From contig JAYEKW010000135.1 in assembly GCA_034716895.1 (NCBI GenBank), positions 1 through 35,200 of the forward strand: a stretch of DNA of 35,200 nt. Reading direction: 5' to 3'. Of this stretch, positions 15,489 through 35,200 are shown piece after piece. The position numbers and the translations under genes are program-made. The notes under the pieces were generated by a model that saw only the letters and a program-made list of their open reading frames with translations, ran no database searches and was not told the origin of the DNA. Origin of the DNA: Candidatus Neomarinimicrobiota bacterium. GTDB taxonomy: Bacteria > Fidelibacterota > UBA8477 > JABMPR01. Numbering within the stretch: the first letter of the stretch is position 1; each line of letters starts with the position of its first letter.

Positions 15489-15537
15489 AAAATAAAAAGA
15501 GGCTGTCTCAAATTTTGAGACAGCCTCTTTTTATTTT
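15489..15537. terminator. Strong bidirectional terminator hairpin between mtaB and the OFA transporter gene
   Basis: A perfect inverted repeat of 24 bp arms (15489-15512 and 15514-15537) around a GAGGCTGTCTC core. A-rich outer arms give a U-tract on either transcript. It lies between two convergent genes, 14 nt from the OFA stop and about 130 nt from the mtaB stop. Confidence 0.9.
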
Positions 15538-18769: not shown

Positions 18770-18790
18770 ATTTATATTTAATGTTGCCTA

Positions 18791-18971
18791 TTAAGCTGGC
18801 CTGAGATAGCCGTATGCATCAGGAGTCATCACCTCGCAGCAGTGTAAGTTCTTTTGCCACGAAGACACAAAGGCTCAAAGAGCCATTCAGGGATTTTATA
18901 GAACATAGTGCCTTAGTGACTTTGTGGCTATATATGTAAAATATACTTACGGATAACATGGGCCGGTTTAA
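18791..18971 (+). mobile_element. MITE-like element, copy 1 (181 bp, TA-flanked)
   Basis: Begins TTAAGCTGGCC and ends GGCCGGTTTAA, imperfect 11-bp terminal inverted repeats (9 of 11 match), flanked by TA at 18789-18790 and 18972-18973. Inside are a long palindrome (gtaagt at 18844 pairing with acttac ending 18950; 19-bp arms 18856-18874 and 18910-18928 with three mismatches), a hairpin GGCTC-AAA-GAGCC at 18872-18884, and CCTGA/TCAGG near the left end. It encodes no protein. A second near-identical copy is at 25549-25762 and a third starts at 35167. TA target duplication is typical of IS630/Tc1-mariner-type elements, so this is probably a non-autonomous derivative. Confidence 0.75.
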
Positions 18972-18973
18972 TA

Positions 18974-19278
18974 ACATCAATTGTACCAATTACATCTCCA
19001 AAGTGCGCTATAAATTCAAGGGATATTTATATTTATCAAGCTTCAAGTTTTTAGCCTGCCTGCGCGAAGACCGACTTCGGCATAGGCAGGCATAGCTGCT
19101 TGTCAGGTCGTAGCATGTAGTGTGGAGACTGATAGATATGGTAGGAACTTTAAGTGCAGAGAAATGGAAAAAGCTGAAGAAGGTAACGCGCAGTTTGAAA
19201 TAAAATTGGTATTAAAAAACATTCTAAAGGTCGAATCAAACGCTGATAATGATTAAAATCCTGCTATATTCATTCAAA
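18974..19278. other. Non-coding stretch after the MITE-like element, with a REP-like hairpin
   Basis: Between the repeat and the glycosidase gene I see no convincing gene. It holds a palindromic unit at 19054-19091, then a short open frame of 21 codons (19138-19203) without homology I recognise and without a good ribosome site. The rest is AT-rich leader of the glycosidase gene with TATATT at 19265-19270 as the only promoter-like element, lacking a good -35. Confidence 0.5.
19054..19091. repeat. REP-like palindromic unit
   Basis: GCCTGCCTGCGCGAAG pairs with CTTCGGCATAGGCAGGC around a 5-base loop, with a small internal irregularity. It is much more GC-rich than its surroundings. Units of this form (GCCTGCC...GGCAGGC with a GAAG/CTTC inner stem) are scattered in many bacterial genomes. 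Only one copy is in this window. Confidence 0.6.
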
Positions 19279-20240: not shown

Positions 20241-20270
20241 AAAAAAACCACCTCATAGAGATGGTTTTTT
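20241..20270. terminator. Terminator hairpin (copy A), bidirectional
   Basis: AAAAAACCACCT pairs with AGATGGTTTTTT (one mismatch) around a short loop. It can end the glycosidase transcript on + and anything reading from the tRNA side on -. It is a near copy of the hairpin at 20359-20389. Confidence 0.75.
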
Positions 20271-20309
20271 GTCGGAATCGGTCTACGCTCTATCGAGCTG
20301 CGCCCTGAC
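20271..20309 (-). pseudogene. Probable degenerate tRNA fragment (tRNA-Pro-like)
   Basis: Read on the - strand, a D-arm-like GGCGCAGCTCGATAGAGCG runs directly into GATTCCGACAAAAAACCATCT. The last 19 bases are identical to the acceptor end plus terminator of the intact tRNA-Pro 119 bp away. Anticodon and T arms are missing. This fits an internally deleted tandem copy of the tRNA and its terminator; the D-arm match is only partial, so the call is tentative. Confidence 0.4.
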
Positions 20310-20358: not shown

Positions 20359-20389
20359 AAAAAAAACCACCTTACAAAGATGGTTTTTT
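20359..20389 (-). terminator. Terminator of the tRNA-Pro gene (copy B)
   Basis: On the - strand the discriminator base of the tRNA is followed by C and then AAAAAACCATCT/AGGTGGTTTTTT, forming a hairpin with a run of U. It lies immediately after the tRNA 3' end. Confidence 0.8.
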
Positions 20390-20390
20390 G

Positions 20391-20465
20391 TCGGAACGGG
20401 GAGATTTGAACTCCCGACCTCTTGACCCCCAGTCAAGCGCGCTAACCGGGCTGCGCCACGTTCCG
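20391..20465 (-). tRNA. tRNA-Pro (anticodon GGG)
   Basis: On the - strand the 75-nt sequence folds as a full cloverleaf: acceptor CGGAACG/CGTTCCG plus discriminator A, D stem GCGC/GCGC, anticodon stem CTTGA/TCAAG with loop CTGGGGG (GGG at 34-36), and T arm GGGAG-TTCAAAT-CTCCC. CCA is not encoded. The G in the discriminator-adjacent first pair position (C1-G72) is typical of bacterial proline tRNAs. It lies 78 nt downstream of the merR-like gene on the same strand. Confidence 0.95.
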
Positions 20466-25502: not shown

Positions 25503-25526
25503 AGGACCGTCCTGAGTGGCGGTCCT
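25503..25526 (+). terminator. Rho-independent terminator of trxA
   Basis: AGGACCG and CGGTCCT form a perfect 7-bp stem around a 10-base loop, followed by CTTTATTTT, 26 nt after the stop codon. Confidence 0.85.
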
Positions 25527-25548
25527 CTTTATTTTAGCGGCGGTGATA

Positions 25549-25762
25549 TTAAGCTGGCCTGAGATAGCCGGTTGCATCAGGAGTCATCACCTCGCAGCAG
25601 TGTAAGTTCTTTTGCCATGAAGACATCCATCTTCGCTCGAAGAGCTACGCCGGAGAAGCAAAGGCTCAAAGAGCCATTCAGGGAATTTATAGAACATAGT
25701 GCCTTAGTGACTTTGTGGCTATACATGTAAAATATACTTACGGATAACACGGGCCGGTTTAA
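25549..25762 (+). mobile_element. MITE-like element, copy 2 (214 bp, with 33-bp internal insert)
   Basis: Same terminal repeats (TTAAGCTGGCC ... GGCCGGTTTAA) and TA flanks (25547-25548 and 25763-25764) as copy 1, and nearly identical along its whole length. The one large difference is a 33-bp insert at 25626-25658 within the left arm of the central palindrome; the length difference of the copies is exactly 33. It lies 22 nt after the trxA terminator, and its right end is about 60 bp from the TPP riboswitch. Confidence 0.75.
25626..25658. repeat. 33-bp insert in MITE-like copy 2
   Basis: Absent from copy 1 at the equivalent site (between 18867 and 18868). It contains CTTCG-CT-CGAAG, a small perfect palindrome, and is more GC-rich than the host element. 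No clear target duplication is seen. It resembles a short dispersed palindromic repeat that moved into the element. Confidence 0.6.
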
Positions 25763-25773
25763 TAAAATAAACA

Positions 25774-34351: not shown

Positions 34352-35071
34352 ATGGCAAAAACGATATCTCCTTTCAATCATTACTTGAATAGTTCCAAAA
34401 CTATCCATTATGGGTTGATCCTGACGCTACCGCTTCTGGCTATTTATGAGTTTGGCATCCATGTGCTGTTTCATGAAAACTTTTTTGAACTACGCAATAG
34501 TGGTGAGATCCTGCTGCGCAGCTTATTTGAATACTTTGGTTTAACAGAACCGACCATCATTTCAGGTATTTTAGTGGGAATCTTTTTGCTGGTGATGGTC
34601 CGCGGTTACAGGATAGAAAGAAAACCGGGTCTGCATGCTAACTTCTTCATCTACATGCTGATGGAAAGTATGCTCTGGGGTAGTATGCTTTTCGTGGCCA
34701 TGCAGGCGTTTACCCAAATACCTCTGCAGTTGATCACCTTTGAAGATAAGTTAGCCACTATGAATTTGGCTATTGGCGCCGGTATCTTTGAGGAATTGAT
34801 CTTCAGAATGATCGTTATGAGCGCACTTATTGTGATCATGGAACGTGGGCTATCAGTCTCCAGAAAGTGGGCTGTTGGCCTGGCGATTCTTTTCTCTGCT
34901 GGTATTTTTGCCGCCTTCCACTTGCTTATGGAGTCTTACTCTCTTCCCATATTCTCACAACGCGTGTTTGGTGGGTTATTGCTGGGAACCTTATACCGCT
35001 ATCGTGGTTATGGTATCAGTGTCTATGCTCATGTTGTGTATAATTTTATCGTTTTAGCCGGATCATGGTAA
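34352..35071 (+). CDS. CPBP-family intramembrane metalloprotease
   Basis: A 239-residue polytopic membrane protein (about seven helices) of the CPBP/Abi family. The three catalytic motifs are in place: EELIFR with E147-E148 and R152, FAAFH with H190, and HVVYN with H227 and N231. These are the residues that bind zinc and act in type II CAAX prenyl endopeptidases and their bacterial relatives. Bacterial members have been linked to self-immunity, protein maturation or unknown roles; no substrate gene is beside it. The start at ATG 34352 is chosen over a GTG at 34343; neither has a strong ribosome site. The third MITE-like copy starts 95 bp later. Confidence 0.88.
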   Translation: MAKTISPFNHYLNSSKTIHYGLILTLPLLAIYEFGIHVLFHENFFELRNSGEILLRSLFEYFGLTEPTIISGILVGIFLLVMVRGYRIERKPGLHANFFIYMLMESMLWGSMLFVAMQAFTQIPLQLITFEDKLATMNLAIGAGIFEELIFRMIVMSALIVIMERGLSVSRKWAVGLAILFSAGIFAAFHLLMESYSLPIFSQRVFGGLLLGTLYRYRGYGISVYAHVVYNFIVLAGSW

Positions 35072-35166
35072 GTCCATAAGGTTCTATTCTTACCAGGATG
35101 AAACTGAATGCATCGATTCGTTTTTTCAGACTTTATTCAGTTCATGATGATCTCGAACTTTGATTA

Positions 35167-35200
35167 TTAAGCTGGCCTGAGATAGCCGTATGCATCAGGA
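35167..35200 (+). mobile_element. MITE-like element, copy 3 (left end only, cut by window)
   Basis: The last 34 bases are identical to the left end of copy 1 (TTAAGCTGGCCTGAGATAGC and onward), preceded by TA at 35165-35166. The orientation is the same as the other copies. The element presumably continues beyond the window. Confidence 0.75.

Follow-up and report, generated by a model that had tools for sequence, protein, structure and literature searches.

The short repeat at positions 18791-18971 of the window, the whole stretch of 35,200 nucleotides analysed here, is a MITE: it is short, occurs in many copies, has no transposase gene, carries inverted repeats at its ends and is flanked by a TA duplication. 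The family to which it belongs is, with high confidence, moved in trans into TA sites by a transposase of the IS630 (Tc1/mariner) type, a mobility inferred from sequence. The window is contig C135 of a 95%-complete assembly of 3.45 Mb in 258 contigs. Published work on MITEs in Neomarinimicrobiota was not found in a literature search, and the family is new for this phylum; its kind is already known from the precedents RUP/IS630-Spn1, Correia and Nezha. The features of the window that bear on this reading are as follows.

18789-18790, no strand: TA at the left of copy 1, as also on this side of 21/21 complete copies in the genome
18791-18971, plus strand: copy 1 of the MITE, a subfamily A member of 181 bp that lacks the 33-bp insert
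18791-18817, plus strand: left terminal inverted repeat of copy 1, TTAAGCTGGCCTGAGATAGCCGTATGC, matching the left end of a same-genus IS630 at 20/27 positions
18856-18874, plus strand: left arm of the internal palindrome of copy 1, GCCACGAAGACACAAAGGC
18910-18928, plus strand: right arm of the internal palindrome of copy 1, GCCTTAGTGACTTTGTGGC, with 3/19 mismatches
18945-18971, minus strand: right terminal inverted repeat of copy 1, reverse complement TTAAACCGGCCCATGTTATCCGTAAGT, matching the right end of the same-genus IS630 at 18/27 positions
18972-18973, no strand: TA at the right of copy 1
25547-25548, no strand: TA at the left of copy 2
25549-25762, plus strand: copy 2 of the MITE, a subfamily A member of 214 bp that has the 33-bp insert, in the interval between a thioredoxin terminator and a TPP riboswitch
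25626-25658, plus strand: 33-bp internal insert of copy 2, TCCATCTTCGCTCGAAGAGCTACGCCGGAGAAG
25763-25764, no strand: TA at the right of copy 2
35165-35200, plus strand: third MITE copy, cut through by the contig end, its TA at 35165-35166, continuing in contig C50
18754-18767, plus strand: terminator-like hairpin of a malic-enzyme gene, with copy 1 starting about 20 bp further on
25503-25526, plus strand: terminator-like hairpin of a thioredoxin gene, with copy 2 starting 20 bp further on

A preliminary description of this DNA had proposed two copies with matching ends and TA on both sides, and both were recovered at exactly the positions given above. By base comparison, TTAAGCTGGCC agrees at 9 of 11 bases with TTAAACCGGCC, the reverse complement of GGCCGGTTTAA, as had been claimed; the ends are of the TTAAGACGGCC/TTAAACCGGCC type, and their inverted similarity is longer than these 11 bp, reaching ~23-27 bp inward from either end. 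The 19-bp arms with three mismatches and the pairing of gtaagt with acttac in the palindrome of copy 1 were likewise found as described. Copies 1 and 2 are 96% and 93% identical in their aligned halves and differ by the 33-bp insert present in copy 2; neither contains an open reading frame of 80 aa or more, in agreement with the earlier statement that no protein is encoded. The third copy had escaped the preliminary description, as had the 33-bp insert of copy 2 and the greater length of the inverted similarity. The end of the window (35049-35200) overlaps contig C50, in reversed orientation, over 152 bp with 98.7% identity, and C50, on which lies a complete copy with 99% identity to copy 1, is probably the continuation of the window contig.

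In the genome as a whole the family comprises at least 35 BLAST matches and at least 21 complete copies, with part of the first-look candidates left unscored. The complete copies stop at the proposed terminal repeats with TA directly outside, on the left border in 21/21 and on the right in 20/21, so that the borders expected from the preliminary description hold across the genome. All 21 begin at TA|TTAA-type ends, and every complete copy that was aligned has a TTAARCYGGCC-type sequence at either end; the copies measure 176-216 bp (393 bp in a composite). The terminal motif was matched 88 times in the own genome and six times with a reversed-pattern control; the abundance of the family is far beyond chance. 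Beyond TA, no excess of bases common to both flanks was detected among the 21 complete copies, and the target duplication is therefore 2 bp long. A piggyBac-like duplication of TTAA was considered and rejected, given that full IS630 ends have TTAC or TTAT at this place and that left and right variants differ within one copy.

Two subfamilies, A and B, were distinguished, each about 91-99% identical within and about 82-90% between, together with outlying copies of about 66-78% identity, including one in the same-genus genome G005. In each subfamily some copies have the 33-bp insert and others lack it, a patchiness which suggests some recombination between copies. It was rejected as an independent mobile unit, since 19 of the 20 genomic occurrences of its core lie within copies of the family. 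Composite copies, in which a second MITE is nested at the same internal place, were found at no fewer than three different sites (C151, C10, C54), and the recurrence of the same nested insert at several sites indicates that the outer MITE moves end to end as one unit, the composite having itself been transposed to several sites.

The nested element, found inside some copies of the first MITE, has ends of the form CCTG(A/C)AT(A/T)ATTCAT and a 4-bp TTAG duplication; nested or composite loci were recorded at C151:5036-5432 of the own genome, G000 (L018, L027, L085), as well as at contig ends of C10, C54 and C85. At least five more short TA-flanked families with similar ends and unrelated interiors were seen in the own and in same-genus genomes (e.g., C51:8840, C114:5540, C85:564 and C141:4725; in G001 C40:9940 and C114:31248), and one group among them has ends of another IS630 type, TATTAAACCGGCGGACATTAATT.

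Empty sites were searched for in the genus by joining the flanks of several copies via a single TA. For the copy L022 on contig C227 an empty site with a single TA was found on contig C38 of the own genome (151 bp ungapped, 98%), and the joined flanks also align ungapped in five other genomes. For the copy L013 on contig C136 the empty site lies in the same-genus genome G001 (202 bp ungapped, 86%) and carries TG, not TA. Both sites have one dinucleotide at the junction, in keeping with the transposition model of the preliminary description, which called for a single TA at sites without the element. At L013 an open frame runs through the junction only when the flanks are joined with exactly one TA; in 75 plasmid records the restored frame has matches to IS4-family transposases, and the MITE had therefore landed in a different insertion sequence. 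At the window sites themselves the junction could not be aligned base by base in relatives because the intergenic DNA has diverged. The interval occupied by copy 2 is element-free in 12 of the 13 same-genus genomes examined; in the thirteenth, G001, a different MITE occupies it, which is an independent insertion. At the site of copy 1 the comparison is complicated further by a transporter gene that other species have between the flanking genes. An element related to the nested MITE was observed in the G001 interval orthologous to this site (L298).

With regard to the source of mobility, the preliminary description had suggested an IS630-type transposase acting elsewhere in the genome. The type is upheld by IS630 elements with similar ends in two related genomes; the location is less well supported, as the own assembly did not yield such an element. 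The single DDE_3 transposase element of the own genome, on contig C115 (L047, 870-2095), is of IS630 type, has a different end (TAGTAC...) and has its transposase frame split into open reading frames of 153 aa and 206 aa; with 8-10/27 matches its ends are unrelated to those of the MITE, and it was rejected as the source. An IS630 with MITE-type ends was not found in the 95%-complete, 258-contig assembly, in which repeats break contigs, and among the terminal-motif sites listed for this genome no pair stands at insertion-sequence distance.

In the same-genus genome Tobar14m-G35 (G017), about four copies of an IS630 were found with both ends resembling those of the MITE. Compared with the window copy, 20/27 and 18/27 positions are identical (shuffle p < 1e-4). 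Four contigs stop about 135 bp inside this element, whose opposite end lies on another four contig ends, so that it is represented by its two ends alone, the middle being unassembled. Open frames begin with MEKTDARKLS... at one end and close with ...NYFKHPKIAYAG-stop at the other; in tblastn this second frame proved similar to IS630 transposases, and Pfam assigned no class to this 39-aa C-terminal fragment. A fully assembled IS630 is present in G103 (L254), which belongs to another family of the phylum. Its transposase of 344 aa matches NF033545 (E = 3.8e-65) and DDE_3 (E = 2.7e-38), no solved structure being matched by sequence, and the element is bounded by TATTAACTCGGCAAAGGATAGTCGTATGA and TATTACTCCGGCGATGATTAAACGTATGA, the same end type as in the MITE. 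When 84,980 genomes were scanned for the motif TATTAARCYGGCNNNNRWTARYCGNA, 33 matches were obtained, 27 of them labelled Neomarinimicrobiota or Marinimicrobia, a distribution that also identifies the phylum of the host.

The anatomy described here is what the IS630 mechanism predicts for a non-autonomous passenger. Elements of the ISY100 type are cut and pasted into TA, which is duplicated (PMC2170065). By analogy, an IS630 transposase acting in trans would bind the terminal inverted repeats of ~27 bp, excise the MITE in a cut-and-paste step and insert it at a TA, which would thereby be doubled. The source transposase may have been lost from the own genome or be unassembled in it, and the mover would presumably belong to this group of IS630 rather than to another kind of transposase. 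Duplication of TA is not unique to IS630, and an IS5-type element has been proposed as the mover of Correia elements. A non-IS630 transposase of that sort, also leaving TA duplications, would be compatible with the absence of a matching transposase from the assembled own genome; however, along some 27 bp the ends of the MITE match those of IS630 elements from this genus and this phylum, more distant members of the same IS630 group (Azotobacter, Microvirga plasmids) also begin with TT(A/G)ATCC(A/G)GC directly after TA, and searches with the terminal pattern revealed no non-IS630 element with such ends. We therefore regard a mover outside IS630 as improbable.

Slightly less probable still is that the repeat is maintained chiefly for a role as structured RNA or in regulation (an RNA processing site, terminator or attenuator) and has incidentally transposon-like ends. 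Many copies do lie beside genes, copy 1 folds better than its shuffled versions (z = -3.1) and copy 2 slightly so on the plus strand (z = -1.9), and Correia elements are substrates of RNase III (PMC10969869). Against this, the reverse strand of copy 2 folds at chance level (z = 0.4), the covariation term of the alignment amounts to just -0.13 kcal/mol with double changes in 5 of 35 pairs, such as any diverging inverted repeat can yield, orthologous sites in relatives are empty, and some copies interrupt genes. Moreover, a predicted terminator precedes each of the window copies by about 20 bp, which makes read-through transcription into them doubtful. The large RNA hairpin that the preliminary description had expected upon transcription stands as a prediction; a transcribed, functional hairpin is unsupported and improbable in view of the negligible covariation, the chance-level fold of the reverse strand and the terminators upstream. 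On the favoured reading of a family moved by IS630, the palindrome is most likely neutral filler or a by-product of MITE architecture, not a functional RNA. That the family is an assembly artefact, or spread solely via recombination or gene conversion between intergenic regions, as the fragmentation into 258 contigs, several of them broken inside copies, and the patchy 33-bp insert might hint, is hardly credible in the face of unrelated flanks, precise ends, TA borders, gap-free empty sites and the same terminal structure in independently assembled genomes.

Several further palindromes were observed. The motif GCCACGAAGRCACAAAG...CTTTGTG(T/A)C occurs at 18856-18928 of the window, in the nested MITE of L085 and in G005 (L151), that is, in elements with different terminal repeats, as if it were a filler hairpin common to unrelated MITEs. 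A GC-rich palindromic repeat at 19055-19091, GCCTGCCTGCGCGAAGACCGACTTCGGCATAGGCAGGC, is dispersed in several same-genus genomes with 88-97% identity and reaches six or more copies in G014. Hairpin copies with A- and T-runs (AAAAAAACCACCTCATAGAGATGGTTTTTTGTCGGAA) at 20241-20277 and 20360-20396, 92% identical and 119 bp apart, adjoin a tRNA gene on the minus strand (20391-20465). At 15489-15537 lies a perfect, terminator-like inverted repeat of 24 bp with a 1-nt loop (AAAATAAAAAGAGGCTGTCTCAAA), and a similar hairpin, GAGGCTGTCCCAAA, follows the thioredoxin gene in G006 and G013.

One IS630 terminal code (TATTAAACYGGCNNNNRWTARYCGTA) is met throughout Neomarinimicrobiota on many short elements whose palindromic interiors are unrelated. 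It is a tentative thought, which we hold to be possible rather than likely, that such MITEs arise by repeated hairpin capture; in that event the transposase would take up any hairpin-forming stretch between two matching ends, instead of the MITE descending from a full insertion sequence by deletion. To this marine phylum, known nearly only from metagenomes, the present analysis adds a MITE family not described before, for which there is evidence of precise insertion and a probable source of the transposase. The family helps to explain why assemblies of Neomarinimicrobiota break at short repeats, and its terminal motif can be used to annotate non-coding repeats across the phylum; the general understanding of how MITEs work is unchanged by it.

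Among known systems, IS630/Tc1-mariner elements such as ISY100 and that of G103 (L254) share with the MITE the insertion at TA and its duplication, and the IS630 of G103 and G017 also have terminal inverted repeats of the same sequence type. In contrast to these, the MITE is without a transposase gene, and it resembles them only in about the final 27 bp at either end. RUP of Streptococcus pneumoniae is likewise short, gene-free and furnished with inverted terminal repeats resembling those of an IS630, and is thought to be moved in trans by IS630-Spn1 (PMC3049150). It differs from the MITE in sequence, length (107 bp) and host phylum, and the IS630 with matching ends sits here in relatives, none having turned up in the assembly that holds the MITE. 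Correia elements of Neisseria have a TA duplication, as does the MITE. They also resemble it in size, in their inverted repeats and in having copies beside genes (PMC10969869), but possess another terminal sequence and another presumed transposase, and RNase III processing and promoters are features known from Correia elements. Nezha of cyanobacteria is proposed to be mobilised by an insertion sequence with similar ends (ISNpu3-like; PMC3049150), as we propose for the MITE; it has another sequence and another host, and the two are likened by description.
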